Assembly: GCA_009917405.1 (NCBI GenBank)
Contig: QZED01000015.1
Coordinates: forward strand, 1 to 45,046
Length of the DNA stretch: 45,046 nt
DNA from: a bacterium c-19
GTDB lineage: Bacteria; Bacillota_I; Bacilli_A; Erysipelotrichales; Erysipelotrichaceae
Direction: 5' to 3'
Below the pieces are notes generated by a model. It searched no databases. It was not told where the DNA came from and saw only the letters and a list, made by a program, of their open reading frames with translations. A program made the position numbers and the translations under genes. Below, in pieces: positions 5,085 through 44,864 of this stretch (positions within the stretch are counted from its first letter, which is position 1; every line of letters begins with the position of its first letter).

Positions 5085-5360
5085 TTTTCTGAAAGCATAT
5101 CTTGATAAAAAATTCATTTCATAAGCTATTATGCAATCGCTGCATCTATCTTTTAATTTGTTATCAAATCTTGCATCACCACTATCTGTATAATCTGTTT
5201 TTGACGCTTAAATGCACTCACATATTGATTAGAAATTCATAGTTTGAAAGTGATTGCGGCAAACTGATCAATATGGACGCTTGCATTGATAATAGTATAT
5301 TCCCTCAATGAGAGGATCTCTTTTACTACACATTACAATTTTGCAAAAGCTAATCACTTT
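5085..5360. other. Intergenic region, no gene seen
   Basis: Between the acyltransferase terminator and the end of pepD I find no gene. Short open frames on the minus strand (about 5095-5215) have no start signal and no recognisable family. No clear pepD terminator was found either. Confidence 0.5.
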
Positions 5361-6791: not shown

Positions 6792-6804
6792 TCTTCTACC
6801 TCCT

Positions 6805-6870
6805 GAATCTGTTTAGATTCTTTCACATTGATGTGATTTAACTGCTTGATCATTTATCTTAATAATCAAG
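6805..6870 (-). promoter_or_regulatory. Three tandem hairpins in the pepD leader
   Basis: Reading toward pepD: CTTGATTAT pairs with ATGATCAAG (6870-6845, one G-U), TCACAT pairs with ATGTGA (6836-6823), and GAATCT pairs with AGATTC (6820-6805). The last is four bases from the pepD Shine-Dalgarno. None is followed by a T tract, so none is an ordinary terminator. They may be processing or translation-control structures. Confidence 0.4.
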
Positions 6871-6875
6871 AAAAC

Positions 6876-7475
6876 CTATTCTGCTTGCGCTGCTTTCATT
6901 ACGAACAGTTGTTCCAACAGTTTCTCCCCGTCCTGCGATTCTATCAGCCACTTATTATCAACCAGCTGTAGTCGCATTGTCATATCAAAGCTTTTTGATC
7001 GCTCGGCATTTTGAAACTCTTCAATGATAATATCCGCAATCTTTTGGTTTTTATCAGCTTCACTTAAATCATCACCGTTGATTGCCTGAAAGGTCTCTTC
7101 CTGCTTGGAAACAATGTCCGTTAATACTTCAGAAAGATCATACGCCTGTACATGAATTTTTATTTCAGCTTTTGTTTCATTTACCACAGCTTCATCACAC
7201 GTATATGTAAAATTCAACAGCTGTGCATATAGCTTCCACATACTGTCCTTATTCAGACCCCATACTTTTGCATCTTCCTCACTGATCGTAAAATCAACAC
7301 CGCTTTGATCTGATGTATGATCGGCCATCACCATCCCATCTTGTTTTTTTATCGCTTCTAAATACAGCTGTAAAACCGCTTTGGGGGATTGCTCTGGCAT
7401 TACCTTTTCTTCAGAGCGACATCCGCAGATAAACAACATACTCAGTATCACTATCGATAAGATCCGTTTTCTCAT
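6876..7475 (-). CDS. Putative lipoprotein, NTF2/DUF4878-like
   Basis: A predicted lipoprotein of 199 residues. The N-terminus MRKRILSIVILSMLFICGC is a charged start, a hydrophobic stretch and a lipobox ICGC with the modified cysteine at residue 19. The remainder is acidic and globular. The pattern SPKAVLQLYLEAIKKQD, long middle helices and a final strand KWLIESQDGEKLL resemble Firmicute lipoproteins with DUF4878 or DUF5105 NTF2-like folds; this is a fold-level guess, not a function. I chose the ATG at 7475 because AAAGGA lies nine bases before it; an upstream ATG nine bases earlier touches that site. An extended -10 (TGGTATCAT, about 7507-7515) may drive it. It may be co-transcribed with pepD. 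Confidence 0.7.
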   Translation of the reverse strand: MRKRILSIVILSMLFICGCRSEEKVMPEQSPKAVLQLYLEAIKKQDGMVMADHTSDQSGVDFTISEEDAKVWGLNKDSMWKLYAQLLNFTYTCDEAVVNETKAEIKIHVQAYDLSEVLTDIVSKQEETFQAINGDDLSEADKNQKIADIIIEEFQNAERSKSFDMTMRLQLVDNKWLIESQDGEKLLEQLFVMKAAQAE

Positions 7476-8108: not shown

Positions 8109-8748
8109 TGGTGTACATTCTTTATCAAATCGTGAATTGATTGCGATTTTATTAAGAAGCGGGACTAAAGATCGCTCAGCGTTGGATTTGGCTGATGAGA
8201 TATTGCATTTAAGAGGTAATTTATTATCCTTGATGGATCTGCGGATTGATGAATTAATGCAGATTAAAGGAATCAAAGCTGCCAAAGCAACTGAATTATT
8301 GGTGTGCTTTGAATTAATTCAACGAATTTCTTTAGAACGTATGAAACAAGAGACACACACTGATCATAAGCCACAGATAATTACAGAATGGCTGATGAAC
8401 CATATCGGACACAAGGACCAAGAGATTTTTGTCGTTCTCTTTCTAAATACACGCGGAGAGATCATTGCTCATAAGGATATGTTTATCGGAACCTTGTCAA
8501 GAAGCTTTGCGAATCCGCGAGAGGTATTTAAGGAAGCGCTTAAATATAGCTGCACTCACATTATATGCGCACATAACCATCCGAGCGGTAATCTTACGCC
8601 GAGCAGAGCCGATATAAAAAGTGCCGATGCGCTTGAGCAAAGCGGAGAAATGATCGGTATTGAAGTATGGGATCATTTGATCGTATCGCGCAATCGCTAT
8701 TTTAGCTTTCGTGAGCATGACATGATGCGAAATCAGCGTTTATTTTGA
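8053..8748 (+). CDS. radC: RadC-family JAB1/MPN domain protein
   Basis: 231 residues, usual for RadC (UPF0758). The N-terminus MKVKEMNKQERPREKAL and LSNRELIAILLRSGTKDRSALDLA is the conserved start, followed by a helix-hairpin-helix segment (LMQIKGIKAAKATELL). The C-terminal half carries the JAMM metalloprotease-like motif H-x-H-x7-S-x2-D as HNHPSGNLTPSRAD (about 178-191). The biochemical role of RadC is still unsettled; it is not required for recombinational repair in all species. The start is the ATG that reproduces the conserved N-terminus, so the gene overlaps the SPOR-like gene by 56 bases, indicating translational coupling. Plus-strand pair, convergent with the large surface-protein gene. 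Confidence 0.93.
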   Translation: MKVKEMNKQERPREKALNDGVHSLSNRELIAILLRSGTKDRSALDLADEILHLRGNLLSLMDLRIDELMQIKGIKAAKATELLVCFELIQRISLERMKQETHTDHKPQIITEWLMNHIGHKDQEIFVVLFLNTRGEIIAHKDMFIGTLSRSFANPREVFKEALKYSCTHIICAHNHPSGNLTPSRADIKSADALEQSGEMIGIEVWDHLIVSRNRYFSFREHDMMRNQRLF

Positions 8749-8779
8749 TTAACTTGTTAAGTGAAAAGATTTTCTCGAT

Positions 8780-8816
8780 AAAAAAAGCGGATCGCTAATA
8801 TTCTTCACGTCCGCTT
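8780..8816 (-). terminator. Terminator of the large surface-protein gene, overlapping its stop
   Basis: On the minus strand AGCGGA (from 8815) pairs with TCCGCT (to 8786) and runs into seven T residues (8786-8780). The upstream arm lies inside the last codons of the gene and the stop codon is in the loop. Confidence 0.75.
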
Positions 8817-11479
8817 CTGATTAATAAGATAATAAAACATACGACCAGTACCGCTCCTGCTGCATACAATACCAATTGCAGATCATTTTCCGCAAAGGTA
8901 AACGGCTGAAATGATACTCTGGTAACCTCGGTGTGCAGATTGGGTGCTGTTTCGAGCATGTCGTTTGGTTTTGCCAAATAAAATCCCAGTTGCCCTGCCG
9001 TAGCACTGCGTTTAGTTTCTACATAATAAATCGGTTCTAATGATGATAAATGAAGGATCTGTGCCGTCGGCTCAGCAGTTGTTACAATCGGCTCATAACC
9101 GCTGCCCTTTCGCTGTACCCAATAACCTGCCGGCTTGGTTTGATTCACTATTGGTATGGTTACTTGAATCGGTTGATTGGCAATCGCATTTTCATGATTT
9201 TCCCACTCGATTTGAAATCCTTTTACATCGGTTATTTCTTCAGTTTCGGGAATAATCTTCACAATATCTTCCGGTTTCGTATCATCGATTGACTGTACAT
9301 GAATGCGGTCACTGTCCGTAAAGACACGAGAATAAAATAACATGGTTGAATTTTCCGCGCTGAGCACTGTCATCGCCTCATCATTCAGAACCTGACACGT
9401 CTTTTCTCCTTTTAAACCGGCATGATCGCTCGCTGCTGCACATACTTTATGCACACCGGTATCATCTATTTGAATCGAAACGCTCTCCCCTGTTTCCACT
9501 CCCTCGCTCAACAGCGTTTCTTTTTTGTCATTGTCAATGCGATAAATCTGATAAGCAATTTCCTTTACTCCGCTTGTCTTAATCTCAGGATCCATTAATG
9601 TATCATCGGCATGAATATCTATGATCATTCCTTCACCGAAAACACTTTGGAAAGTCAATTCATCGACCCATTCCTTCCATTTATGATCAGCTGCTTTACG
9701 CTCACTGATGGAAGTGATTAATGGTGCGTGCGTATCGATTTTAAAAGAAACTTTCGCAACCGTGCTTTTCACACCTTGTTTATCGCTGAACGATATCGGT
9801 AGCGTCGCATCGCCGTTATAATCCCACTTCAACTTTTGATAGCTTTCTTCGCTGTAATGAAAAGCGGATGCCGGTGCATCTTTCTGTAAGGATAAGGTAA
9901 CGGCAGAGGTATACCATCCTTTTTCTCCGAGCTTTCCTTGCATATTCAGCCATTTTGCATCACCGAGCCATTCCTTATTTAAAACTTCCGGTTCTCTTAC
10001 ATGAACAAGCAACGAAATCACATTGCTCTTTTTATAGTTCGCATCACCATCATTATAAATTTCGATTTTCGCACTGCCAACTTTTAGCGGCTTGATCACA
10101 AGACCACCCGGTTCACTGTAGGACAAAAAGATACATTCCTCATCGCTAATCAGCTTGGCTACCAATGCACCGTTTCCCATCCGCCCTTTAATCAGCGGAT
10201 CAAAGCGTCCGTCCTCTGGTGATATATTTATTTCACTGCTCGGTAAGGAAATCTGTTGATCTGCTTTATCGATCATGACACTGCACTCATATTCCTGATC
10301 CTGCCATCTTGCCGTAACCATAATCGGTTGTTTGCTGATTTTTTTGATGATCACATTCCCTGTCTGTGAAATATTTAGATATTCTGCGTCAGCTTCATTC
10401 TTTAGCTGAAACAAAACCTCTTCTAAATTTTTGTTACTCGTAATCTGAAAGCTGTTGTTCCCTGCTTCGTAAGAACGCACGATGCTCGATACTGCTTTTC
10501 CCTCATAGCGAAACTGAAATTCCTCTTTAGAATTATCAGCTTTCACAATCACTTCATATTCACAGGTTACTTCATATAGCTTGTCCTGTTCCGATGTCAC
10601 GGTTACCTTTACATGATGTTTGCCTTTTTTCTGTTTTCCCGACACATATAATTCACCGTCGATTATTTCAAACTGCTTTCGGTCTTTTTCTGCAAGTTCA
10701 TATTGATACGTTCCGCTTTGCGGATGCTCAATATAACCGATTTTTTGCTTCTCTGCGTTTTCAGCGGCAACAGGCTGTGTTTGAATAAAGCGGAAATCAT
10801 TATCTTCACCTTTTTGAATCTGCGGCTTTGTCGTCTCTGTTTTTGCGACGGCGACTTCTATCTTCAACACACTTTCATATAAGCGCCGGTCCGCATCTGC
10901 AGTACCGTCAAACACGACCATATGTATATTTGCAGTACCTTCCTTTGCGGCGGTAATGATTCCTTCTTCATTAACCACAGCGACTGCTTCATTATCACTT
11001 GAATAAGTAAAAAGCGGATGAACATCACTCGGTAATGTACCGTAAGTTTGCGGCTTGAGTTGTTGGTGCGGCTCCATTGTCATCGTATCGTTTTGATAAA
11101 CGATACCGTAAACGGTAACTGCAAGCACACCGCTGATTTCTTTACTGCTGCCTTGAGATTTCACCTCTGCACTTAGTTCACCCTGATAAACCCCCGGCTT
11201 TCGTATATCGGATATTGTAATGATATTTGTTTCATGAAACGGAATTTGATAGGTAAAAGCACCGCCGTGTAATTCTCCCCCGCCGACATAAAGAATTGTC
11301 TCATCGCTGCGATCACTGGTAAGCGTGTAGGAAAATTCATCGTTTACATAATGATGTTCTTTCGTATTCTCACTAAATCGCAATGTTGATTCATCAGCCG
11401 CAAATAAGGAACCGCTGATCAACGTTGCACCACCCAAAAGACAGATCGAAAGAATTGAAACACAAAACTTTTTCCACAT
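8795..11479 (-). CDS. Large membrane-anchored surface protein with Ig-like domains
   Basis: 894 residues. A signal peptide (MWKKFCVSILSICLLGGATL, cut probably after LFA at 27) is followed by a long extracytoplasmic region. One hydrophobic segment near the C-terminus (LYAAGAVLVVCFIILLI, about 868-884) is followed by the short basic-acidic tail RSGREEY, so it is anchored by a type I membrane tail and not by sortase (no LPxTG). Domains seen: a Big2-like Ig domain (about 120-210, with DNEAVAVVNEEGIITAAKEG), several beta-rich repeats each ending in a V-x-V strand, and a later domain with WYTSAVTLSLQKD and FKIDTHAPLITSI that resembles bacterial Ig/OmpL47-like modules. The role is probably adhesion or envelope structure. 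Promoter: TATAAT at about 11510 with a weak -35. Confidence 0.8.
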   Translation of the reverse strand: MWKKFCVSILSICLLGGATLISGSLFAADESTLRFSENTKEHHYVNDEFSYTLTSDRSDETILYVGGGELHGGAFTYQIPFHETNIITISDIRKPGVYQGELSAEVKSQGSSKEISGVLAVTVYGIVYQNDTMTMEPHQQLKPQTYGTLPSDVHPLFTYSSDNEAVAVVNEEGIITAAKEGTANIHMVVFDGTADADRRLYESVLKIEVAVAKTETTKPQIQKGEDNDFRFIQTQPVAAENAEKQKIGYIEHPQSGTYQYELAEKDRKQFEIIDGELYVSGKQKKGKHHVKVTVTSEQDKLYEVTCEYEVIVKADNSKEEFQFRYEGKAVSSIVRSYEAGNNSFQITSNKNLEEVLFQLKNEADAEYLNISQTGNVIIKKISKQPIMVTARWQDQEYECSVMIDKADQQISLPSSEINISPEDGRFDPLIKGRMGNGALVAKLISDEECIFLSYSEPGGLVIKPLKVGSAKIEIYNDGDANYKKSNVISLLVHVREPEVLNKEWLGDAKWLNMQGKLGEKGWYTSAVTLSLQKDAPASAFHYSEESYQKLKWDYNGDATLPISFSDKQGVKSTVAKVSFKIDTHAPLITSISERKAADHKWKEWVDELTFQSVFGEGMIIDIHADDTLMDPEIKTSGVKEIAYQIYRIDNDKKETLLSEGVETGESVSIQIDDTGVHKVCAAASDHAGLKGEKTCQVLNDEAMTVLSAENSTMLFYSRVFTDSDRIHVQSIDDTKPEDIVKIIPETEEITDVKGFQIEWENHENAIANQPIQVTIPIVNQTKPAGYWVQRKGSGYEPIVTTAEPTAQILHLSSLEPIYYVETKRSATAGQLGFYLAKPNDMLETAPNLHTEVTRVSFQPFTFAENDLQLVLYAAGAVLVVCFIILLIRSGREEY

Positions 11480-24970: not shown

Positions 24971-27900
24971 TTATACTAAACCGAAATATTTTTCAAAAAA
25001 ACCTTTTAGCTTATCAATGACAGTCTGTTTTTTCAAAGCTCTATTTGAACCGTCTGAAAATCTTGAAATTGGTGGTAATATTTTATCAATATCCGTTCCT
25101 GTGGTTTTTATCCCACCATCTCTGAATGAATTTTCTATAAATTTTTGAGCTTCATTGTATTTTAATTTTTCATCTTCGATGATTATCTTTAGGTCCTGTT
25201 CTTTTTGCTTTTCAACAAAGTCTTTCCAGTCCTTTTCAATATCTGTTTTTACTGTCATTTGGGCAACAAATCCCTCAATTAGATCTTTTTTGCTGCGCAG
25301 TTCAACACTTGCATTTATTGATCTATTAATATTAGCAAGAATCGTTTTATCCTCACAATTTGATTCGTGATATTTAGCGACAAGCGCCAAGATATAATCT
25401 ATATTGACCTCGACCTGTTTTATAAGTTCTATTTCAAAGACAATGTCATCGTTGATTCGTTCTTTTTCAATATCACTTTTTTTAGCGTAATCTTGGTATA
25501 AATCAATATAAATGCTTTGATAATCCTGTAAATCTCTAACGGATACAGAGTTATCACTTTCGAATTCGTCAAAACACATTAAAATATTTCTCAATTTCAA
25601 AATGCGTCCAAACAGTTTAATAAATTCTTTTTCATTATCCTCGCTGATAATTTGACTGCTTATTGGAAATTCATTTACCAGTTCGGCTACAAGCTCATTA
25701 TAACCTTCAATATGTTTCCCGTGTTCATCTTCATAGCCATTCACATATTCATTGTAACTTTTCAGAATAACCATACCCCCTGCATTTTGATCTCCAAAAA
25801 GCGCTAAGGCATTATTAGTGGCTGTCTCAAGATTTCTAAAACAAACAATATTTCCAAATGTTTTAACTGAGTTCAAAATACGATTGGTACGGGAAAACGC
25901 CTGTATCAAACCGTGATCTTTTAAATTCTTATCTACCCACAAGGTATTAAGGGTAGTTGCGTCAAATCCTGTTAAAAACATATTGACTACAATCAGCAAA
26001 TCAATCTCACGATTTTTCATTCGCAATGAAACATCTTTATAATAGTTAGGAAATTTATCGGAGGATGTATCATAACTAACATTAAACAGCTTATTATAAT
26101 CATAAATGGCGCTTTCAAGAAAATCTCGTGATGTCTGATCAAGACCGCTTGTATCGAAATTCTCGTCTTTCAATATATCATCCGGATCTTCTTCGTTTGG
26201 ATTAAAACTGAATATTGTAGCAATATTTAATTTATAACCGGTTTCTTCCATTTGTTTTTTTAATTCATTGTAATAAGCAATCGCTGCCGGAATAGATGCG
26301 ACTGCAAAAATAGAATTAAAACCATTTACTTTTGCAGTTGTTTTTTGCTCTGATACAGTATTATTCTTGGACTTCGCCATTTTTTCTACATTCGTAATCA
26401 CTTTATGGTCATAATAGGAACGGCTTTGATTGCGATAAGTTTTTTGTGCAAAATGTTCAAGAATGTATTGTGTAATCTCAGATACCCTTTTAGGATCAAG
26501 CAAAGCCTTTTCACGGTCAATTGCCTTTACTTGTTTGTCATTCAACAACTCTGGGTTTTTGATTGTATTAATATAATCGATTCTAAAAGGCAGTACATTT
26601 CCATCGTGAATAGCATCTACAATGGTGTATGCGTGCAACGGTCTTACTTTGTTCCCGTTTTCGTCTGGTTCTCCGCCGAATACTTGTGCTGTAGTACGCA
26701 TATTCAAAGCATTGGAACTGTTAGAGTTTGATGCAAAAATAGGTGTGCCTGTAAAACCGAAAATATGATAATTCTGAAAGTGCTTTGTAATCGACTTGTG
26801 CATATCTCCAAACTGAGAACGGTGACATTCGTCGAAAATCATAACAATATGTTTTTTATAGACTTCGTGTTCTTTGTTCTTAGATATGAATTTATCTAAT
26901 TTTTGAATGGTTGTGATAATAATTCTTACATCATCATCTTCCATTTGTTTTTGCAGAATTTTAGTAGAGGTGTTGCTGTTGGCAGCACCTTTTTCAAACC
27001 TGTCATATTCTTTCATTGTCTGATAGTCAAGATCTTTTCTATCGACAACAAACAATACTTTATCAATGAAATTCAATCCTTGAGCAAGCTGTGCAGTTTT
27101 AAAACTTGTTAAAGTCTTGCCGCTTCCGGTGGTATGCCAAATGTAACCGCCTGCCTCTTTTCTGCCGGTTTTTTTGAGGTTGGTAGAAACGATAATGCGG
27201 TTTAGGATTTTTTCAGTTGCCGCAATTTGATAAGGACGCATTACCAATAATAAATCCTCTGAAGTAAACACACAGTAACGAGTCAAAATATTAAGCAGCG
27301 TATGTTTTGCAAAAAAGGTTTTTGTAAAATCCACAAGGTCCGGGATGGTGCGGTTTTTCTCATCCGCCCAATAACTTGTAAATTCAAAGCTATTAGAAGT
27401 CTTTTTCTTTTTTGCTGCGTTTTTCTCTGCATTATCTTTGATATGCTGAAATCTTGTTGTATTAGAATAATACTTTGTATGCGTCCCATTGGAGATTACA
27501 AACAGCTGTACATACTGATACAATCCGCTGCCTGCCCAAAAGCTGTCACGCTGATATCGATTGATTTGGTTAAACGCTTCTCGAATTGCGTTCCCTCGTT
27601 TTTTAAGCTCAATATGCACCAATGGCAATCCGTTTACCAAAATCGTCACATCATAACGAGTATCATGCTTCCCGCCGTCTTCTTCATACTGGTTTATTAC
27701 CTGCAAATGATTGTTATGAATGTTGGTTTTGTCGATCAGCTTGATGTTTTTTACATAACCGTTATCGAGGGTAAGATTTTGCAGATAATCTTCCTGTATT
27801 TTGCGGGTTTTCTCTACAATGCCATCATTTCCGTTAGAAATAACGCTGTTGTAAAAGTCGTTCCACTCTTTATCGAAAAAGGTATAGTTATTCAGTTTTT

Positions 27901-28102
27901 CAAGCTGTGTACGGAGGTTGTCAATTAAGTCCTGTTCGCTTTTTATAGTAATGTATTCGTAGCCCTGACTGACAAGGCGATTTATAAAATCTTGTTCAAG
28001 CGCCGCTTCGCTTTGATAGTCGGTGCTTTTTCTTTTTTCGGGTGTGTACTCAGCCACTACCGTACTTTCAGTAGAGCTTGCCACAATTTCAAAGCTATTC
28101 AT
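24971..28102 (-). CDS. hsdR: Type I restriction enzyme, R (motor/nuclease) subunit
   Basis: 1043 residues. With M and S subunits it translocates DNA and cuts far from the site. The N-terminal nuclease has the PD-(D/E)xK residues D151 (YDVTILV) and E165/K167 (HIELKKRG). The helicase part has Walker A HTTGSGKTLTSF (P-loop about 325-330), the DEAD-like IFDECHRSQFG, motif III FTGTPIFA, and motif VI QAFSRTNRIL. A C-terminal helical region for complex assembly follows, rich in charged residues. The ATG overlaps the hsdS end by eight bases (ATGAATAG), so translation is coupled. All domains appear intact. It resembles the EcoR124I-like (type IC) group, which agrees with the TAEL repeat in HsdS. Last gene of the operon; no clear terminator was seen. 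Confidence 0.95.
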   Translation of the reverse strand: MNSFEIVASSTESTVVAEYTPEKRKSTDYQSEAALEQDFINRLVSQGYEYITIKSEQDLIDNLRTQLEKLNNYTFFDKEWNDFYNSVISNGNDGIVEKTRKIQEDYLQNLTLDNGYVKNIKLIDKTNIHNNHLQVINQYEEDGGKHDTRYDVTILVNGLPLVHIELKKRGNAIREAFNQINRYQRDSFWAGSGLYQYVQLFVISNGTHTKYYSNTTRFQHIKDNAEKNAAKKKKTSNSFEFTSYWADEKNRTIPDLVDFTKTFFAKHTLLNILTRYCVFTSEDLLLVMRPYQIAATEKILNRIIVSTNLKKTGRKEAGGYIWHTTGSGKTLTSFKTAQLAQGLNFIDKVLFVVDRKDLDYQTMKEYDRFEKGAANSNTSTKILQKQMEDDDVRIIITTIQKLDKFISKNKEHEVYKKHIVMIFDECHRSQFGDMHKSITKHFQNYHIFGFTGTPIFASNSNSSNALNMRTTAQVFGGEPDENGNKVRPLHAYTIVDAIHDGNVLPFRIDYINTIKNPELLNDKQVKAIDREKALLDPKRVSEITQYILEHFAQKTYRNQSRSYYDHKVITNVEKMAKSKNNTVSEQKTTAKVNGFNSIFAVASIPAAIAYYNELKKQMEETGYKLNIATIFSFNPNEEDPDDILKDENFDTSGLDQTSRDFLESAIYDYNKLFNVSYDTSSDKFPNYYKDVSLRMKNREIDLLIVVNMFLTGFDATTLNTLWVDKNLKDHGLIQAFSRTNRILNSVKTFGNIVCFRNLETATNNALALFGDQNAGGMVILKSYNEYVNGYEDEHGKHIEGYNELVAELVNEFPISSQIISEDNEKEFIKLFGRILKLRNILMCFDEFESDNSVSVRDLQDYQSIYIDLYQDYAKKSDIEKERINDDIVFEIELIKQVEVNIDYILALVAKYHESNCEDKTILANINRSINASVELRSKKDLIEGFVAQMTVKTDIEKDWKDFVEKQKEQDLKIIIEDEKLKYNEAQKFIENSFRDGGIKTTGTDIDKILPPISRFSDGSNRALKKQTVIDKLKGFFEKYFGLV

Positions 28103-29225
28103 TTTCCGCCACCTCCTTTTTCTTAAAAGTTAAGAGCTTATCTCGGTAATATTCGTATTGTTTTTGTCTTGCTTCAATTTCAGCAGGTAATCCCTCGCTG
28201 ATATCGTTGCAAAGCTTATCGAAACGATTTAGCAAATTTACAACTTGCTCTTGTTCGTCGATCGATATTATTGGTATCTGTAAATTTTCTATTACAGTTC
28301 TAGACAAACGAGGAATACTTGCTTTTCTTACATTAGAATAGATAAAGTCTTGTTTTGTAAGTAAAAAGTAGTAAATGTATTTATTGTTAATTTCTCTAGG
28401 ATTAGAAAAAAACAAACAATCGTCTGCAGCCCAAAAATTAGTTTCGCAATAACCTATTTCACCTGCTGCGCCTGCACTAATAACATATGTTGTATTTCCA
28501 TTACAATTATATTTGTCATAATATCCCATAGGTGCAAGACTGTTTTGGTAAACAGGATAGTTTCCATTTGAAATAAGTTGCTTTTTAACTACTCTAATTC
28601 CACGGGAAATATCCGCAACTTCAATGAGTTTTTTCTTAGGTGCTGATTTATAATTAGCGAAAAGTCTATCTCTATAATACTCATACTGCTGTTTTCTCGC
28701 AGTGAGTTCCGCAGTGAGTTCCGCAGTGAGTTCCGCAGTGAGTTCCGTAAATTTATCCAATATACGAATAATCTCCTCTTGTATTGGTAACGGCGGAACA
28801 GCAATTTTTAATGCTCTAAAATCACCGCCCGTTAATTTTGGAATATTGCCATGAATCAAGTGTTTTACAGGTACAGTTTGTAGATAATGAAATAAGTAAC
28901 GCAGCAAAACACCATTTATCTCTGAAATAATATGAGCATGATTGTTCACCCATATTTTTCCTGTAGCCCAAGTAACAATAGGTGTTCCCATTTCGGTTAC
29001 AACGCTACCATCCTCGCCGACGAGAATAAAAGTGCCATCAAATATATAATTAGATACATAATCTTGAATACCATTTGCTCCGTAATACGGATATTTACCT
29101 GCTTCTCTTGCGGATTTTGTTACAGGCTTTCTTTTGTTATCCAAGATTTCACAGCAATTTTCAAGTCTTCGATATTCTACCCCATTGGGGCAAAGTTCAT
29201 TGATAAGTTGTTCTAATTTACTCAT
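28095..29225 (-). CDS. hsdS: Type I restriction enzyme, S (specificity) subunit
   Basis: 376 residues with two target-recognition domains. TRD1 is about 20-150 (after MSKLEQLINELCPNGVEYRR), and TRD2 about 195-330 (KKKLIEVADISRGIRVVKKQ). Each is followed by a conserved helical segment ending in the near-repeat ARKQQYEYYRDRLF (about 176) or ARQKQYEYYRDKLL (near the end). Between TRD1 and the central helix lie three exact TAEL repeats preceded by a TEL. In EcoR124I the number of such repeats sets the gap length of the DNA site. The ATG at 29225 is chosen because GGAGGTGAGG precedes it; it overlaps the upstream gene's stop (ATGAGTAA). The DNA target cannot be predicted from sequence alone. Confidence 0.94.
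   Translation of the reverse strand: MSKLEQLINELCPNGVEYRRLENCCEILDNKRKPVTKSAREAGKYPYYGANGIQDYVSNYIFDGTFILVGEDGSVVTEMGTPIVTWATGKIWVNNHAHIISEINGVLLRYLFHYLQTVPVKHLIHGNIPKLTGGDFRALKIAVPPLPIQEEIIRILDKFTELTAELTAELTAELTARKQQYEYYRDRLFANYKSAPKKKLIEVADISRGIRVVKKQLISNGNYPVYQNSLAPMGYYDKYNCNGNTTYVISAGAAGEIGYCETNFWAADDCLFFSNPREINNKYIYYFLLTKQDFIYSNVRKASIPRLSRTVIENLQIPIISIDEQEQVVNLLNRFDKLCNDISEGLPAEIEARQKQYEYYRDKLLTFKKKEVAENE
28701..28748 (-). repeat. 12-bp tandem repeat inside hsdS (TAEL coding)
   Basis: Four head-to-tail copies of a 12-bp unit (plus-strand AGTGAGTTCCGC). The first three are identical and the last differs at its final base. They code for TAEL on the minus strand. The unit length is a multiple of three, so gain or loss keeps the frame. 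Confidence 0.95.
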
Positions 29226-30096
29226 TTTCCTCACCTCCAACGGCTAAACCTGCATCAAGTAATGCCTTTTGAATTTCAGCATTATTCTTTATTTCTTCAT
29301 TTTTTCTTCTAACATTTTCGATAATTCCAATGACCAATCTTCTTAAAGGTTCATATTCTTTTAGTGCTGTCATTTCATCAGAATTACCATGGGCTATTTC
29401 ACTTAATTTGATAAATAAATCATATCCATTCTCAGCATATATCGAAGGTATAATGGAGCATTCTGAATCAACTCTTTGCAAGACTTCACGAAAATTTAGA
29501 ATTTTTTCATTTTTATCTCTAATTTTGACTCCTGCGTTTAAACCAACTTCATGTGTTATTTTCTCAAATACAGATCTTAAATATATGATTGCTCCTGCCC
29601 CAAGCCTTTCTTTATGTGCAATTTCCGCTTTAGCTAACCACTCCGAATATTTATCCTCAATCTCTATAGCAAGTTTTACATTCTCAGATAATTTGAAATT
29701 TTGCTTCACCAAATTTACATTAGGAGTATTTGCAAATATATCGTCAGCTTCGATTAAAAACCAAGCCTGAATATATGGATTACATTTTCTGCACTTTGAG
29801 TTTTCTTTATCAAAATCTGTACACTTTAACTGACAATCAATACTAATCATTTTTTCATTGATGATTAAGCAATGTAGTTTTTTAGGTGAAATAAAGGAAT
29901 TGGTATCTTCACATATTGTTGAGTAAAAAGGCAAATTAATGGTACCGATTTGTATTTCGATAAAATCGCCTGAAGAAACATAAACTATTTCATCAGTTTC
30001 CTCTTCTTTTTGTGATGTATATCTGTCAGGATCAATAAACGACTCTACTTCACCATGATTTTTATCTCTGTCAGATAATCTGCTACTAAGTCTCAT
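29218..30096 (-). CDS. DUF4145-like protein inside the type I R-M operon
   Basis: 292 residues, between hsdM and hsdS. The N-terminal half is unfamiliar and contains a likely zinc site, C-x3-C-x9-C-x2-C (CQLKCTDFDKENSKCRKCN, about 110-130). The C-terminal half reads GAGAIIYLRSVFEKITHEVG and later FIKLSEIAHGNSDEM, then LRRLVIGIIENVRR. This is the pattern of DUF4145, a helical domain known from some restriction proteins. The stop overlaps hsdS and the start lies four bases after hsdM, so it is made with the R-M subunits. Possible roles are an accessory subunit, a control factor or a guard effector; none is shown. AGGAGG precedes the ATG. Confidence 0.7.
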   Translation of the reverse strand: MRLSSRLSDRDKNHGEVESFIDPDRYTSQKEEETDEIVYVSSGDFIEIQIGTINLPFYSTICEDTNSFISPKKLHCLIINEKMISIDCQLKCTDFDKENSKCRKCNPYIQAWFLIEADDIFANTPNVNLVKQNFKLSENVKLAIEIEDKYSEWLAKAEIAHKERLGAGAIIYLRSVFEKITHEVGLNAGVKIRDKNEKILNFREVLQRVDSECSIIPSIYAENGYDLFIKLSEIAHGNSDEMTALKEYEPLRRLVIGIIENVRRKNEEIKNNAEIQKALLDAGLAVGGEENE

Positions 30097-30099
30097 ACA

Positions 30100-31764
30100 T
30101 TACGCCTCCTCAATTTCAGCTATAATCGCATCAATTTCGGCACGCAATGTATTTTCACGTTGAACAATTTCAGATATTTGCTGGTTAAGGACAGCTATAT
30201 CAATAACTTCTCTTGTATCCTCACTTTCTACATAAGTTGACACAGAAAGATTGTAATCTGCTTTTTCAATATCTTCCTGTTTAACAAGAGCAGTAAAATG
30301 CTTTTCCGTCTTCCGGTTGATATAAGCGTTTAATATATTCTGAATGTTATTAGGCTCGTTGCTTGCAGTTCCGTCACCCAATTTATTGCTGTTGGTAGAC
30401 TTGACAAATTCTTTTGAAGCATCAATAAACAGAGTTTGGTTGTCAACTTTTGATTTTTTGAGAACCATAATGCAAGTTGCAATGCTTGTTCCGTAAAAAA
30501 GATTATCGGGCAGCTGAATGATACATTCGATATAATTATTATCAATCAGATATTTTCTGATTTTCTGTTCTGCGCCGCCACGATACATAATACCGGGGAA
30601 ACAAACAATAGCCGCTGTTCCGTCCGTAGCAAGCCAATGCAGACAATGCATAATAAAAGCAAAGTCTGCTTTTGATTTAGGAGCCAATACACCGGCAGGA
30701 GAAAAACGAGGATCGTTTATCAGTGTTCCGTTGTCAGAACCTTCCCATTTAATAGAATAAGGCGGATTTGAAACGATGGCTTCAAACGGTTCCTCATCCC
30801 AATGCTTAGGATCAGTCAAAGTGTCGCCGTGTTCAATGCTGAATTTATCGTAACCTATGTCGTGCAGGAACATATTGATACGGCAAAGGTTATAAGTTGT
30901 AATATTGATTTCCTGACCAAAGAATCCATTGCGAACATTATCTTTACCGAGAATTTTTGCAAACTTCAAAAGTAATGAACCGCTCCCCACAGCAGGGTCG
31001 TATACTTTATTTACTTCTGTTTTCATTTTACCGTTATTATCAAGAAGCGAAATTTTTGTCAGAAGCTCAGATACCTCTTGTGGGGTGAAAAATTCGCCGC
31101 CGCTTTTGCCGGCATTAGAAGCATACATTCCCATCAGATACTCATAGGTGTCCCCAAAAGCATCGATTGAATTATCTTGATAGTTACCAAGATCCATATC
31201 CCCGATAACAGTAATTAATCTTTTAAGTCTTTTGTTTCTCTTAATAACTGTTGGTCCGAGCTTATTGCTGTTCACATCTATATCGTCAAACAAACCTTTG
31301 AAGTTTTCTTCGCTTGGACTGCCTATAGCAGAGGCTTCAATGTTTTTAAAGTTCGTTTGCAATATTTCGTTCAAATTCTCATCCAAATCAGCAATTTCTA
31401 CTTCTTTGCCGTCTTTTTCCGCTTGATCCTTTGCGTCTTTATCAGCTTTTTTTATTTTGTTTAATAAGTTACCAAACAATTCACTGGGCATAATAAAGAA
31501 GCCTTTTTCCTGCACTAAATCATCTTTAACACTTAAAGCGTCATCATCTTTGATTTTTGCATAATCAAAATCAGTATTTCCTGCCTCCCATTCACCTTTA
31601 TTCAGATAAATTGTAAGGTTTTCAGATATATATCTATAGAACAACATACCTAAAACATATTGTTTAAAATCCCAACCATCGACACTTCCTCTAAGTTCAT
31701 TAGCAAGCGCCCATATTGTACGGTAAAGCTCTGTTCTCTCTTGCTCTCTTGTATTATCATTCAT
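30100..31764 (-). CDS. hsdM: Type I restriction enzyme, M (methyltransferase) subunit
   Basis: Adenine-N6 methyltransferase subunit, 554 residues. The N-terminal helical domain (TIWALANELRGSVDGWDFKQ) is followed by the catalytic domain: motif I KVYDPAVGSGSLLLKF binds S-adenosylmethionine, and motif IV SNPPYSIKW is the N-P-P-Y/F of adenine methylases. The C-terminal helices bind HsdS. I use the ATG at 31764 with GGAG nine bases upstream; an earlier in-frame ATG at 31779 has no site of its own. It is the first intact gene of the operon. M2S1 modifies host DNA even without HsdR. Confidence 0.95.
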   Translation of the reverse strand: MNDNTREQERTELYRTIWALANELRGSVDGWDFKQYVLGMLFYRYISENLTIYLNKGEWEAGNTDFDYAKIKDDDALSVKDDLVQEKGFFIMPSELFGNLLNKIKKADKDAKDQAEKDGKEVEIADLDENLNEILQTNFKNIEASAIGSPSEENFKGLFDDIDVNSNKLGPTVIKRNKRLKRLITVIGDMDLGNYQDNSIDAFGDTYEYLMGMYASNAGKSGGEFFTPQEVSELLTKISLLDNNGKMKTEVNKVYDPAVGSGSLLLKFAKILGKDNVRNGFFGQEINITTYNLCRINMFLHDIGYDKFSIEHGDTLTDPKHWDEEPFEAIVSNPPYSIKWEGSDNGTLINDPRFSPAGVLAPKSKADFAFIMHCLHWLATDGTAAIVCFPGIMYRGGAEQKIRKYLIDNNYIECIIQLPDNLFYGTSIATCIMVLKKSKVDNQTLFIDASKEFVKSTNSNKLGDGTASNEPNNIQNILNAYINRKTEKHFTALVKQEDIEKADYNLSVSTYVESEDTREVIDIAVLNQQISEIVQRENTLRAEIDAIIAEIEEA

Positions 31765-31782
31765 CTTTATATTCTCCATTCT

Positions 31783-39692: not shown

Positions 39693-40010
39693 TTAAGCCT
39701 TTACTTTGACACACGTTCCGTCAGGTCCCGGTGTCGTATTCAAATATTCAGCGATCTTTTCCTTTTGATCCGCTTTACAAGGACGACAGGTTCCGACCAC
39801 GCTGACCTCACCGTTCACAAGTGCTTCCGCTAAACCGGAGCAGCCGGCATAGCCGCAGCTTCCGCAGTTATAATTCGGCAGCATCGCCGTAACGGTTTCA
39901 ATTCGTTCATCAACCTCTACTTGTAAATAACGATCCGCAATGCCGAGACCCAAGCCTAACAATGCGCCGAGTACCAGCATCATAACGATCGCAATCAGGA
40001 TTGCTTCCAT
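39693..40010 (-). CDS. rnfB: Short RnfB-like subunit (membrane anchor plus FeS domain only)
   Basis: 105 residues. One N-terminal membrane helix (AILIAIVMMLVLGALLGLGL, 3-22) is followed by the RnfB FeS motif C49-x2-C52-x4-C57-x17-C75 in YNCGSCGYAGCSGLAEALVN and VGTCRPC. This matches the first part of RnfB. Canonical RnfB continues with two [4Fe-4S] ferredoxin domains, the entry point for ferredoxin electrons in current models; here the protein ends about 28 residues after C75 with a normal stop and a strong terminator. The ATG at 40010 is preferred (AAGGA nine bases upstream) over a GTG at 40016. It is the last gene of the operon. Either it is a minimal form or the remaining domains are coded elsewhere. 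Confidence 0.85.
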   Translation of the reverse strand: MEAILIAIVMMLVLGALLGLGLGIADRYLQVEVDERIETVTAMLPNYNCGSCGYAGCSGLAEALVNGEVSVVGTCRPCKADQKEKIAEYLNTTPGPDGTCVKVKA

Positions 40011-40012
40011 AA

Positions 40013-40189
40013 TCACTCATCCTTTCCGCTCAGGTCATGTGAAGGATGATTTCCGCAGGAAGCATCATGACAGCCCTCACAGCCTGCTTTGATATTTTCA
40101 CAGCCTTCCGGCAGTGGTGTTTTATGATTCAGATAATATAACAATGCATAAATACCTGCCAATACGGCAAAGAACAATACGGCTGCCAT
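40013..40189 (-). CDS. Small cysteine-rich single-pass membrane protein in the rnf operon
   Basis: 58 residues. An N-terminal membrane segment (AAVLFFAVLAGIYALLYYL, 2-20) is followed by a polar tail with four cysteines (residues 30, 37, 40, 45) in GCENIKAGCEGCHDASCGN, spacing C-x6-C-x2-C-x4-C, and three histidines. It resembles in plan the small Cys-rich membrane proteins seen beside feoB in other bacteria, but sits in an rnf operon. The start overlaps the rnfA stop by one base (TAATG) and the stop lies two bases before rnfB, so it is translated with the complex. It could carry an iron-sulfur cluster or other metal; this is inference. Confidence 0.75.
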   Translation of the reverse strand: MAAVLFFAVLAGIYALLYYLNHKTPLPEGCENIKAGCEGCHDASCGNHPSHDLSGKDE

Positions 40190-40770
40190 TATACAAGACC
40201 TGCCAAACCGCTGAATGCCAATGCCATGATACCGGCTACGATCAATGCGATCGGATTACCGGCAAATGCCTTAGGAACATTACATATGTCCAAGCGTTCA
40301 CGAATGGTAGAGAAAATATATAATACCAAGGTAAAGCCGACCGGGATTGCAATCGCGTATGTCAGCATTTCCGCAAAGTTATAGCCTTCGCTGATATTGT
40401 TTAACGTAACATTCAATACAACACAGTTTGTCGTAATCAACGGCAAATAAACACCAAGTGCCTTGTACAGAGCCGGACTCATCTTTTTGATGATCATTTC
40501 TACCAGCTGTACCAAGGATGCGATGACCAAGATAAAGGTAATCAAATCCATGTATTGTAAGGACAGCGGCTCTAATACTGCATAATAAAGTGCATATGTT
40601 ACAAGAGAGGCTGCCACAATGACAAAGGTAACAGCGGCCCCCATACCGATTGCCGAACTGCTTTTCTTAGATACACCCATAAACGGGCAGATACCTAAGA
40701 ACTGATTTAAGATAACATTATTTATTAAGGTGAAGGTGATAAACATCACGAATAAATTTCCTAAATCCAT
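40189..40770 (-). CDS. rnfA: Rnf complex subunit A
   Basis: 193-residue integral membrane subunit with six helices, paralogous to RnfE. NNVILNQFLGICPFMGVSKK near the N-terminus and TTNCVVLNVTLNN in the middle are diagnostic; the cysteines in these two segments are proposed to hold an iron-sulfur cluster with RnfE at the membrane centre. The Shine-Dalgarno AAAGGAGG is inside the end of rnfE. The complex couples ferredoxin and NAD redox to sodium or proton transport. Confidence 0.96.
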   Translation of the reverse strand: MDLGNLFVMFITFTLINNVILNQFLGICPFMGVSKKSSSAIGMGAAVTFVIVAASLVTYALYYAVLEPLSLQYMDLITFILVIASLVQLVEMIIKKMSPALYKALGVYLPLITTNCVVLNVTLNNISEGYNFAEMLTYAIAIPVGFTLVLYIFSTIRERLDICNVPKAFAGNPIALIVAGIMALAFSGLAGLV

Positions 40771-40773
40771 AGT

Positions 40774-41454
40774 TTACTTCGCCTCCTTTAAAGCTGCCTT
40801 AGCGGCTGCTTCCTTTTTTTCCTCTTTAGCAGTTTGATGATTCTTATAGGCTGCCAAAGCACCTGCCAATAATGCGAAAGTAATAAACGCACCGACCGGC
40901 TGTGAGAACATACTGATGACATAATCCTCGGGAATCAGTCTGAAAGCGAAAATAGACTGTTCCACATTAAACGGATTTTCAAATGTCAACATGCCGGTTG
41001 CGAGGATCTGACGAAGTGCAGACATCACGATAATTGATACCGTATAGCCAAGCCCCATTCCCAAACCGTCCAGCGCAGAATCAAATACACCGTTTTTAGA
41101 CGCAAATGCCTCTGCACGTCCTAAGATGATACAGTTTACTACGATTAACGGAATAAATACACCTAAGGCAGAATCTAATGCCGGTGCATATGCTTTAATC
41201 AACATTTGGATGATCTTTACCAATGTCGCAATCACTACGATATAGACAGGAATACGAATTTCACTCGGTGTTACCTTTCTCAAGCATGAGATAATAATAT
41301 TGCTCATCACCAATACAAGAATAACCGCAACACCCATACCGATCGCATTATTTAAAGTCGTAGTAATCGCTAAGGTAGAACATAATCCCAAGTATAATCC
41401 GAATACCGGATTTTCTCTGATGAACCCGGCGGTAAAATTTTCTTTACGATTCAT
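40774..41454 (-). CDS. rnfE: Rnf complex subunit E
   Basis: 226 residues, six-helix membrane protein. The N-terminus NFTAGFIRENPVFGLYLGLC and the segment PLIVVNCIILGRAEAFASKN are typical. Both conserved cysteines (near 21 and in VNCIILG) are present. The C-terminal tail is lysine- and alanine-rich (KEEKKEAAAKAALKEAK). It is 12 bases after rnfG with GGAGGG at the start, and it overlaps the ribosome binding site of rnfA. Confidence 0.96.
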   Translation of the reverse strand: MNRKENFTAGFIRENPVFGLYLGLCSTLAITTTLNNAIGMGVAVILVLVMSNIIISCLRKVTPSEIRIPVYIVVIATLVKIIQMLIKAYAPALDSALGVFIPLIVVNCIILGRAEAFASKNGVFDSALDGLGMGLGYTVSIIVMSALRQILATGMLTFENPFNVEQSIFAFRLIPEDYVISMFSQPVGAFITFALLAGALAAYKNHQTAKEEKKEAAAKAALKEAK

Positions 41455-41465
41455 TGTTCACCCTC

Positions 41466-41978
41466 CTACTTCAAATTTTCCGACAGGTACTTGCCTGCCT
41501 CTTGAATGCCTTCCACAACCGGCTTTGAGGATACCGTAGCGCCGCTGATCGTATCCAAGGTATCGGTTTCAGCATTCTTTCCGACTAATTTTTCTTTAAA
41601 GGAATCCTCGGCAACCTTAGTTCCGATTCCTTGTGTATCACCGTTGGAAATTACTACATAATCTAAGATTTTGCCGCTGTCATCAAGCGCAACCATAAAG
41701 CTTGTTCCTTCCTTATAGCCGCTGACCTTCAGTTTAAAGACAATCCCTTGATTATTCACCTTAAAAATCTTTTCAATTGTTTCACTGTCCTTGACACTGA
41801 TCTCTTCAAAATCAGAATCCGCTGCATCCGGGAAGATCAGCTGAAGATTTTGTTTTTCTGCCGCCAATGCATTTGCCGCAACGATCGGCGCCGTTAAGCT
41901 GTTTGCCAATGCGAGCGCTCCGCCGGCGATTGCCGCTACAAGAGCCAGAAACAGTGTTAAATGCAATACTTTTTTCAT
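41466..41978 (-). CDS. rnfG: Rnf complex subunit G (FMN-binding)
   Basis: 170 residues. A membrane anchor (LHLTLFLALVAAIAGGALAL, 5-24) is followed by an extracytoplasmic FMN_bind domain. The flavin attachment motif SGATVSS is at 145-151, with T148 the expected phosphoester threonine. GIGTKVAEDSFKEKL is the usual segment before it. A second domain of this type is fused to RnfD in the gene just upstream. Confidence 0.93.
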   Translation of the reverse strand: MKKVLHLTLFLALVAAIAGGALALANSLTAPIVAANALAAEKQNLQLIFPDAADSDFEEISVKDSETIEKIFKVNNQGIVFKLKVSGYKEGTSFMVALDDSGKILDYVVISNGDTQGIGTKVAEDSFKEKLVGKNAETDTLDTISGATVSSKPVVEGIQEAGKYLSENLK

Positions 41979-41989
41979 AGCTTACCTCC

Positions 41990-43501
41990 CTAGTAGCCTA
42001 ATGCCTTCTTGACCTCAAGAAGCGCACGCATACTGGACTTTACGGAGAATGTCGCTCCGGAAACTACATCGTTCTTTTCCACTTCATTCAATGCAGAAAT
42101 GTCTTTTCCCTTGAATTGATCCAAATATTTTGCATTCAGAATCTTATCACCGAAATATTCAGTATCATTCATCGCAGTTACATTCACCGATACAATTGTT
42201 TTATTATCGGCTGCAATCGTAATTTCAAACTGATTCGGTTCAAACGGGTGTCCGTAATCCGGCATATTCGGACCTTCCTTCGCCGCAAAGCCCTCTGCTG
42301 TAATCTGATAAGTCGTTGAGCCGTCGGCATTTTTCACAGATCCGTCCAATTTCGCAGATAATGAATTTACATAATCATCACCCATCGCAATCATCTCAGT
42401 TTTCGGTTTTTCCGGTTTTTTAGGTTCCGCCGGAGTAATAGCCATATTCGCCAAATACACAGAGCCTAATCCCAACAAGCTAAGCACTGATAAGCTGATC
42501 CATGATTTCTTGATCAGTGCGCGCTGTTTACCGGAGAATGCCTGATCGATTGCCGGTGTCAGCATATTCATAATTAAAATGGAATACATGCAGCCTTCCG
42601 GCGCATTTGCCAATACGCGAATCAATACCGTGATAATACCGGCACCGAGTGCGAATACACATTTTCCCTGCTTGGTTGCCGGAGATGTGACGGGATCACT
42701 CAACATAAATACGGCACCGAATGCCACACCGCCCGTGCATACATGGAAAATCGGATACCACAGCCAATTACTCATACCACAGAACAAAGCCAATGCGGAT
42801 GATAATACAAAGATACTGCCTAAGTAAATGGTCGGTACACGCCAGTCAATGACCTTGCGAATCGCCAAAATCGCACCGAGTACCAACAGCAACAATGTAC
42901 TTGTTTCACCTAAGCCCCCCGGATACCAGCCAAGGAATAAATTCCACAGTCCGTCGAACTTATCAAGCAGCGTTGAAATCATCGTATCATTTAACGTCAG
43001 CCAGTTATAACCTGTCGCCATTGTCGAGATCGGTGTCGCACCGGTTGCGACATCCGCTACCTTAGAACCGGCAAAGCTCGCAAAAATAATCGCAAAGCCG
43101 ACCGCTGCCGGATTGAAGATATTTTGACCGAAGCCGCCGAACAGGATTCTGCCGACGAAAATCGCAAAGAAAGTTGCCATTCCCAGTGCATAAAGCTGTG
43201 TATCGACCGGACACATCAACACCAAAATAATCGCAGTGATCCATCCGAACGAGGAAGCCAAATACTTCTTCATATTCTCTTTTTTAAATAATGCCCAAGC
43301 AATTTCGGTCACAAATGTAACTCCCAGTGCCGTAGCCATCATCAATAATGCTTGAATCGCATATTCACTTCCGAATTCCTTGAAATAATAGAATAAGGAA
43401 AATGCATATACGATAAGTAATGCAATCGTCAGCTCTAACATCATACGCTTTGTACTTTGCTTCTGGCGCAGGTTAGGGCTTACACTGAATGTAAATTTCA
43501 T
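41990..43501 (-). CDS. rnfD: Rnf complex subunit D with fused RnfG-like FMN domain
   Basis: 503 residues; ordinary RnfD has about 310-350. The N-terminal part is normal RnfD: SPNLRQKQSTKRMMLELTIA, FGGFGQNIFNPAAVGFAI, CTGGVAFGAVFMLSDPVTSP with the threonine expected to carry FMN, and MNMLTPAIDQ. After the last helix (about 345-367) a proline-rich linker leads to an extracytoplasmic domain (about 380-503): FEITIAADNKTIVSVNV, then NDVVSGATFSVKSSMRALLE with S-G-A-T at 481-484. That is the FMN_bind motif of RnfG. Frame and codon use are continuous, so it is a real fusion. The complex would then carry two RnfG-type flavins plus that of RnfD. Confidence 0.93.
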   Translation of the reverse strand: MKFTFSVSPNLRQKQSTKRMMLELTIALLIVYAFSLFYYFKEFGSEYAIQALLMMATALGVTFVTEIAWALFKKENMKKYLASSFGWITAIILVLMCPVDTQLYALGMATFFAIFVGRILFGGFGQNIFNPAAVGFAIIFASFAGSKVADVATGATPISTMATGYNWLTLNDTMISTLLDKFDGLWNLFLGWYPGGLGETSTLLLLVLGAILAIRKVIDWRVPTIYLGSIFVLSSALALFCGMSNWLWYPIFHVCTGGVAFGAVFMLSDPVTSPATKQGKCVFALGAGIITVLIRVLANAPEGCMYSILIMNMLTPAIDQAFSGKQRALIKKSWISLSVLSLLGLGSVYLANMAITPAEPKKPEKPKTEMIAMGDDYVNSLSAKLDGSVKNADGSTTYQITAEGFAAKEGPNMPDYGHPFEPNQFEITIAADNKTIVSVNVTAMNDTEYFGDKILNAKYLDQFKGKDISALNEVEKNDVVSGATFSVKSSMRALLEVKKALGY

Positions 43502-43513
43502 ATTGTCCTCTCC

Positions 43514-44806
43514 TTATTTCTTCGCCATCGCAAGCTGGCGTTTTGCTTTTCTGACATTCTCGGTAACATCTAAGCGTGACGGGCAGATGTACGCACATAA
43601 GCCGCACTCGATGCAATCCATCGCATGAAGCTTTTCCATCATCGCCTGATTTTTAGCCTTAGCCGATTGTACAATTCGAACCGGCTGCAGACCAACCGGA
43701 CACACGTCACAACACTGACCGCAGCGCATACAAGCGACACTGTCATAACTCTTAGTCGCTAATACCGTGATCGCATTCATTTGACGCTCAGCGACAAACT
43801 TATCATTGACGATCGTCTTGCCCATCATTGCGCCTGCCGCAATCAGCTTAACATCTTCACATGTATAACCGCCGCAAGCTTCAATCAGCTCATTAGCCGG
43901 TACGCCGACAGGACAGTGTACATTGACCGGTTCCTTTACCGCATTACCGCTGACAGTCATGAGTGCAGTAATAATCGGTTCCCCATGCAATAATGCATTC
44001 GCAAACGCATATGCGGTAGATACGTTATTCACAATCGCACCTGCTTCAGAAGGAAGCTTCTGATAATCCTTTTTCATAACATAGCGAACAAGGGCGCGCT
44101 CCCAACCGATCGGATATACATCAGGAACTGCAAGAACTCTGACTCCGTTGATATTGGCAACCGCTGCCTCTACCTTTTTAATCATTTCGGTGTGCGTCTT
44201 TTTAATCGCAATGACAGCTTCCTCTGCCTGTGCCATTTTACGCATTGCCAAGATACCGACAAGGATTTCATCCAAATGGTATTCCATCGCAATATGATCG
44301 GCTGTGATATACGGCTCACATTCCGCCGCATCAATAATCAACTTTTTAATATCCTTGGCACTTTGATACTTTACATAGGTAGGAAAGCCTGCACCGCCTT
44401 GACCGATAATCCCGGCTTCCTTCATAAAAGCAATCAATTCTTCACGTGTAGCAGTTTGATAATCTAACGGTTGGAAGGGTAATTCCCGCTCCATCTTCCC
44501 GTCATTTTCAATCACTACATGATCCAAAGGCTTTAAAGACATGTGCATCAATTTCTGCACACCTTTTACCGTACCCGATACACTCGCATAGATTGGAATT
44601 TCCATACGATCCTTGCATACGGCAATTTTCGCTCCTACTTTTACGTGATCTCCCTCTTGAACCAATATTTCAAACTGTGTTGAATGACTGGCAAACATGG
44701 GAATGAACACCTGCGGTCCGGCCTTAACTTCCAAAATTGCTTTTTTGGACGTTAATTCCTTATAACCCGGTATATGATGACGCATTGATCCTAATAACAA
44801 TGACAT
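43514..44806 (-). CDS. rnfC: Rnf complex subunit C (NADH-binding, iron-sulfur)
   Basis: 430 residues; the cytoplasmic face subunit that binds NAD(H) and FMN. IGQGGAGFPTYVKYQSAKDI is the Nqo1-like nucleotide/FMN loop. Two [4Fe-4S] motifs lie near the C-terminus: CMRCGQCCDVCP and CIECGLCAYICP. The N-terminal barrel carries VFIPMFASHSTQFEILVQEG. I chose the ATG at 44806 with AAGGTG seven bases upstream, next to a GTG at 44809. It is the first gene of the operon, order C-D-G-E-A-small-B, with tight spacing. Confidence 0.95.
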   Translation of the reverse strand: MSLLLGSMRHHIPGYKELTSKKAILEVKAGPQVFIPMFASHSTQFEILVQEGDHVKVGAKIAVCKDRMEIPIYASVSGTVKGVQKLMHMSLKPLDHVVIENDGKMERELPFQPLDYQTATREELIAFMKEAGIIGQGGAGFPTYVKYQSAKDIKKLIIDAAECEPYITADHIAMEYHLDEILVGILAMRKMAQAEEAVIAIKKTHTEMIKKVEAAVANINGVRVLAVPDVYPIGWERALVRYVMKKDYQKLPSEAGAIVNNVSTAYAFANALLHGEPIITALMTVSGNAVKEPVNVHCPVGVPANELIEACGGYTCEDVKLIAAGAMMGKTIVNDKFVAERQMNAITVLATKSYDSVACMRCGQCCDVCPVGLQPVRIVQSAKAKNQAMMEKLHAMDCIECGLCAYICPSRLDVTENVRKAKRQLAMAKK

Positions 44807-44864
44807 CACTTTTCACCTTACCTTTCCGTTATGTGTCTGCTTCACTAATTTTGACACTAGTTTA

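Follow-up and report, generated by a model that had tools for sequence, protein, structure and literature searches.

An FMN_bind Domain Appended to RnfD in an Rnf Operon of the Erysipelotrichaceae

In the genome examined here, that of a gut bacterium of the Erysipelotrichaceae, the RnfD subunit of the Rnf complex is extended at its C terminus by an additional transmembrane helix, a linker, and an FMN_bind domain that has an ApbE flavinylation motif of its own. The gene lies in the window (the whole 45,046-nucleotide stretch of DNA that was analyzed), which is one contig among 184 in a genome of 2.24 Mb. Computational comparison establishes the domains of this protein, the conservation of the added motif, the operon in which it sits, its occurrence in relatives, and an ancestry for the tail that is separate from that of RnfG. 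RnfD fusions of this kind are common in the family, and they may provide an outlet for electrons on the outer side of the membrane.

The RnfD–FMN_bind Gene and Its Operon

The rnf genes are read from the minus strand in the order rnfC, rnfD, rnfG, rnfE, rnfA, a 58-amino-acid ORF, and rnfB:

43514..44809, minus strand: rnfC, 431 aa (Pfam and NCBIfam scans)
41990..43501, minus strand: rnfD–FMN_bind fusion gene, 503 aa, ATG start
41466..41978, minus strand: rnfG, 170 aa, separate and complete (FMN_bind, 50.5 bits)
40774..41454, minus strand: rnfE, 226 aa, unfused in the window (Pfam and NCBIfam scans)
40189..40770, minus strand: rnfA, 193 aa (Pfam and NCBIfam scans)
40013..40189, minus strand: conserved 58-aa ORF, encoding a single transmembrane helix followed by C-x6/7-C-x2-C-x4-C
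39693..40016, minus strand: rnfB, 107 aa, transmembrane helix and FeS domain only

Within the fusion gene, which has a ribosome-binding site just 5' of its start, and in the neighboring rnfG, the following parts are distinguished:

42533..43489, minus strand: RnfD core, residues 5–323 (Pfam NQR2_RnfD_RnfE; solved RnfDs matched near full length)
43034..43054, minus strand: RnfD's own flavinylation motif DVATGAT, D150–T156
42449..42505, minus strand: extra transmembrane helix 11, about residues 333–351 (hydropathy; absent from solved RnfDs)
42341..42448, minus strand: Pro/Lys-rich linker, residues 352–387 (sequence)
41993..42340, minus strand: appended FMN_bind domain, residues 388–503 (Pfam match and isolated domain model)
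42050..42070, minus strand: ApbE motif DVVSGAT of the appended domain, D478–T484 (sequence and conservation)
41535..41555, minus strand: ApbE motif DTISGAT of RnfG, ending at T148 (sequence)

That the protein is an RnfD is supported by its core, its key residues, and its position in the rnf operon. The core scores 262.3 bits against Pfam NQR2_RnfD_RnfE (cut-off 27.7), and its alignment with the solved Clostridium tetanomorphum subunit (7zc6_D) spans 7–300 of 310 residues. The best NCBIfam match is TIGR01946, at 183.1 bits under a curated cut-off of 207.05; since the core residues and operon context of an RnfD are both present, this miss is a matter of score threshold only. RnfD of Acetobacterium woodii bears FMN on T156 (PMC11889175), and T156 of the window's protein aligns with it, while N130 and D269 align with the A. 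woodii riboflavin-site residues N123 and D249. All three are invariant in an alignment of 12 fused RnfDs (the window's and 11 others that are 32%–72% identical to it).

By domain and motif, the tail reads as an FMN_bind protein. A sequence-only reading of this DNA had placed an FMN_bind domain with an SGAT motif of its own at the C terminus of RnfD, beside a separate and complete rnfG, and these features are borne out: the Pfam scan places FMN_bind at residues 424–494 (29.5 bits, cut-off 22), and DVVSGAT satisfies the ApbE flavinylation motif, defined as D-x-x-[ST]-G-A-[ST] (PMC12052999). The same reading was right that RnfD is longer than usual, although its figure of 150 residues was too small; solved Clostridia RnfDs have 310–318 aa, and the window's is longer by ~185–190 residues, which the extra helix, the linker, and the FMN_bind domain make up. 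An assembly artefact is ruled out, as the same fusion ORF is found in independent assemblies of uncultured Erysipelotrichaceae. Three of these (L006, L007, and L008) have the full-length fusion at 99% identity, and two more have it at 78% identity (L009 and L010, the latter only as far as its contig reaches).

A Predicted Outward-Facing Tail

RnfD has ten helices (PMC11889175), and the C-terminal ten residues of the C. tetanomorphum protein are cytoplasmic (PMC9588780). With the core ending in the cytoplasm, as in this homologue, and an eleventh helix following it, the tail would therefore be outside. We regard it as very likely that the FMN_bind tail occupies the outer face, where ApbE and RnfG are, its position in the window's own RnfD being a prediction from topology. 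ApbE is present in a single copy in the genome, and this sole copy is a lipoprotein with a lipobox and is therefore outside. T484 is the predicted site of a covalent flavin. The sequence-only reading had counted two outward covalent flavins; because the T156 site of RnfD itself is intact, there would be three.

An eleventh hydrophobic stretch is seen in every RnfD of the same class, fused or unfused, in which the pattern for the end of the core worked. As unfused RnfDs also have helix 11, the outward tail probably preceded the gain of the domain. RnfE is fused to FMN_bind in two relatives, each time behind a newly gained hydrophobic helix that has no counterpart in the window's RnfE. These proteins are 366 and 353 aa long (L045 and L138); the gene in L045 lies at 8517-9617 on the plus strand, with the added helix before the domain. 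Appendages on RnfG need no added helix, because the end of RnfG is already outside.

A model of the isolated tail domain (mean pLDDT 70.7) has C. tetanomorphum RnfG as its best match in the PDB (7zc6_G; Z 8.3, rmsd 3.3 over 100 residues). The next-best matches are other RnfGs, and the flavinylated domain 1 of CbFMN4 is also among the matches. The input alignment of the model contained RnfG rows and the Foldseek E-value is only 0.05, so that this support for an RnfG/NqrC-like fold of the tail is modest. A sequence search of the PDB with the tail found no match. The AlphaFold model of full-length RnfD, built from four input sequences, is unreliable (pLDDT 41.7).

Conservation of the Added Motif

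T484 is invariant in the 12 diverse fused RnfDs, and D478, G482, and A483 are at least 90% conserved, a degree of conservation that exceeds chance. The dN/dS of the FMN domain is ~0.12–0.3; because dS is saturated, the value can be read only as an indication of purifying selection. These observations bear on the suggestion that the domain has no working flavin and is a structural tail, or one on which cell-wall or lipoprotein partners dock. The fast evolution of the extra helix and linker would fit such a role, as would the altered motifs (SSAT, SGCT, or IGAT) of a few relatives. The invariance of T484, the near-invariance of its D, G, and A, and the retention of the acceptor Thr in all of the altered motifs argue against it, and we consider a docking tail improbable.

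Origin of the Appended Domain

The phrase "RnfG-type", which the sequence-only reading applied to the tail, does not hold as a statement of descent. When 79 FMN_bind domains are placed in a tree (102 columns, with many forks unresolved), the first RnfG domains form one starred clade, one aberrant row aside, and the window's RnfD tail falls in a different clade, also starred and well supported, that consists of 26 appended domains (19 from RnfD, six from RnfG, and one from RnfE). Against TIGR01947 the tail scores 15.7 bits under a cut-off of 102, a cut-off that the window's true RnfG also misses (68.6 bits). By ancestry the tail is not an RnfG; it belongs to a lineage of its own, made up of FMN_bind domains appended to RnfD, RnfG, or RnfE.

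A rival origin, a plain tandem copy of the neighboring rnfG fused to rnfD, has in its favor that the two share a Pfam domain, that rnfG lies directly downstream of rnfD, and that RnfG too has an N-terminal helix. Yet the tail is only ~25% identical to the window's RnfG, the starred RnfG clade leaves out the appended domains, and helix 11 is also found in RnfDs without the domain. An RnfG duplication is rejected by the domain tree, within the resolution given above, and we find such an origin scarcely credible.

In several genomes the appendages borne by RnfD and RnfG of a single operon are closely related, at 98% identity in L063, 59% in L046, and 53%–60% in L049/L050; the domain has therefore been exchanged between Rnf subunits. 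The identity in L063 (RnfD at 6015-7445 and RnfG at 5104-6006, minus strand) points to recent copying from one subunit to the other. Distinct appended sets occur in other families, and the starred branches require at least four state changes. In a concatenated RnfD/E/A tree, the absence of any appendage requires only four changes; a single loss could explain the large appendage-free clade that adjoins the window's.

Distribution in the Erysipelotrichaceae

We surveyed 145 genomes of the same family, thus within one phylum, and found a principal RnfD match in 113. The fusion is common: 72 of the 113 RnfDs are fused, with one to three domains each (in 65 the profile-search match extends over the appended domain, and seven more were recognized by an HMM made for the domain in this analysis), 36 are unfused, four are cut by contig ends and were kept out of both classes, and one is N-masked. 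At least seven of the unfused RnfDs are accompanied by an RnfG that has between two and four FMN_bind domains. Overall, appended domains occur in one to three copies on RnfD, in up to three extra copies on RnfG, and also on the tail of RnfE. Fused RnfDs are found in other families of the class as well. Apparent fusions of 871 aa (RnfD) and 631 aa (RnfA) in one genome (L089, G493) were rejected, as their frames run through N-masked sequence.

A Proposed Side Branch for Electrons

We propose that an outer flavin tethered to RnfD takes electrons from the outer flavins of Rnf to acceptors outside, a proposal that we hold to be about evenly balanced between right and wrong; the direction of electron flow and the identity of the acceptor are what we infer here. 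An outside ApbE would flavinylate the small C-terminal FMN_bind domain on T484, helix 11 would place on the outer face a tail that would otherwise end in the cytoplasm, and the domain would swing on its flexible linker near the flavins of RnfD (T156) and RnfG (T148). The usual U-shaped path, from ferredoxin through RnfB, RnfA/E, the RnfG FMN, the RnfD FMN and riboflavin, and RnfC to NAD+, would be kept, and the extra flavin would form a side branch by which electrons leave the outer flavins for acceptors beyond the membrane. This parallels the proposal of Meheust et al. for multi-flavinylated RnfG (PMC8238504). The variable copy number of the domain and its presence on the tails of RnfD, RnfG, and RnfE suggest a tethered carrier more than a component with a precise place in the core path, because the domain is placed on whichever tail reaches the outside, in variable number, and beside a conserved RnfG shuttle.

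Relatives rich in appendages often have many other FMN_bind genes, and three such genes that were fully read encode lipoproteins in which FMN_bind is combined with FAD_binding_2. In the raw data, appended domains correlate strongly with other FMN_bind genes (Spearman 0.74; other FMN_bind places have a median of 4 versus 0), with L089 counted among the 29 genomes scored as "none". The correlation is lost with independent contrasts, from which L089 was left out (r = 0.19, p = 0.10), so shared ancestry explains most of it. Independent pairs were too few for a sign test of co-occurrence, and RnfD fusion status alone gave a weak association (p = 0.02). We therefore rejected the argument from co-occurrence for an outlet to FMN/FAD reductases, which is not significant under independent contrasts.

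No full-length FAD_binding_2 reductase was found in the window's genome. Outside the rnf operon, FMN_bind occurs in this genome as a degenerate remnant and in a small lipoprotein with a DILTGCT motif. The remnant (L003, ~1500-1610, plus strand) is short, reads DAISGAT, and adjoins an aminotransferase-like ORF; it is perhaps what is left of a lost outer flavoprotein. The lipoprotein is one of two small tandem lipoproteins (L004, 757-1227 and 1345-1815, plus strand) that have D-x-L-T-G-C-T where SGAT would stand; of the two, the second alone comes near the threshold for FMN_bind, its paralogue having no significant Pfam match, and they are possible flavin carriers outside the cell.

With no obvious reductase here and a correlation that fails phylogenetic correction, an internal role becomes a serious rival: the extra flavin would be a second shuttle or buffer beside RnfG, between the RnfA/E [2Fe-2S] cluster and the RnfD FMN, and would need no outside acceptor. 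The window's clade retains the domain in genomes without any other FMN_bind gene, as several close relatives do, and RnfG must swing to bridge ~35 Å (PMC12174285), a distance over which a second carrier could help. Against this, the domain is found on RnfG and RnfE too and is repeated up to three times per subunit, its sequence is not RnfG-like by ancestry, and 28 of the 76 Rnf operons in the concatenated tree have no appended domain. On balance an internal buffer seems to us somewhat unlikely, and we continue to favor the tethered outlet.

The Input Side of the Complex

The window's RnfB matches only residues 1–89 of C. tetanomorphum RnfB, which comprise its helix and swinging FeS domain. The ferredoxin-type C-terminal input module is missing from it and from the RnfBs of relatives across the class; in solved RnfBs this module carries two to seven [4Fe-4S] clusters (PMC12174285). 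The 58-aa ORF is present in 110 of the 145 family genomes, and its four Cys are invariant in 21 aligned sequences; it has no convincing match in Pfam, NCBIfam, or the PDB. One guess is that its product acts as an Fe-S carrier at the Rnf input. A broader picture, tentative and in our estimate rather unlikely to hold as a whole, is of the family's Rnf as a pump that has been rebuilt and given a branched outlet. In it, the input would have kept only RnfB's swinging FeS domain, perhaps with the 58-aa four-Cys membrane protein as a helper, and exchangeable FMN domains on RnfD, RnfG, and RnfE would pass ferredoxin electrons both to acceptors outside the cell and to NAD+.

Elsewhere in the window, an apparent type I restriction-modification cluster occupies 24971-31779 (minus strand), with HsdR-, HsdS-, and HsdM-like ORFs (named by eye from the sequence); an ORF of 292 aa separates its S and M genes.

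Comparison with Known Systems

The remark of the sequence-only reading that this architecture is not known from described Rnf or Nqr complexes holds in part. No description of an RnfD or RnfE fused to FMN_bind was found in the literature searched, mostly non-subscription papers; the combination PF03116+PF04205 may already be listed in InterPro or the AlphaFold DB. RnfGs with several FMN_bind domains, on the other hand, have been published together with a proposed bifurcated electron path (Meheust 2021, PMC8238504). Those complexes and the window's share the possession of extra outer FMN_bind domains, but here the extra domain is on RnfD, behind an added helix, and beside a single-domain RnfG.

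Compared with the RnfD/NqrB proteins (PF03116; 7zc6_D of C. tetanomorphum and 9eri_D of A. woodii), the window's RnfD has the full core with T156, N130, and D269, and adds to the solved structures helix 11 and the FMN_bind domain. The Nqr/Rnf-like two-subunit systems (Meheust 2021; Huang 2024, PMC11334425) resemble it in having an RnfD-like membrane domain with a C-terminal fusion and in being linked to flavinylated outer proteins. Their tail, however, is a cytosolic NAD-binding PF00175 domain and they have lost the RnfD flavinylation site, whereas the window's RnfD has an FMN_bind tail, keeps the site, stands in a full rnf operon, and shows no PF00175 in the Pfam scan. SaFMN3 and CbFMN4 (PMC10339131) likewise have tethered FMN_bind domains with ApbE flavins, but they are separate membrane-anchored proteins and are not parts of an Rnf subunit.

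Implications for Rnf in the Family

The exchange of domains among three subunits shows how a deeply conserved ion pump can gain cofactors while its core is unchanged. The fusion also offers a clean experimental handle, either a single Thr (T484) or one removable domain. If the appended flavin does draw electrons out, Rnf would stand at a fork, with ion pumping and NAD+ reduction on one side and respiration on outside acceptors on the other, and the Rnf of a common gut family would not be a closed ferredoxin:NAD+ loop.
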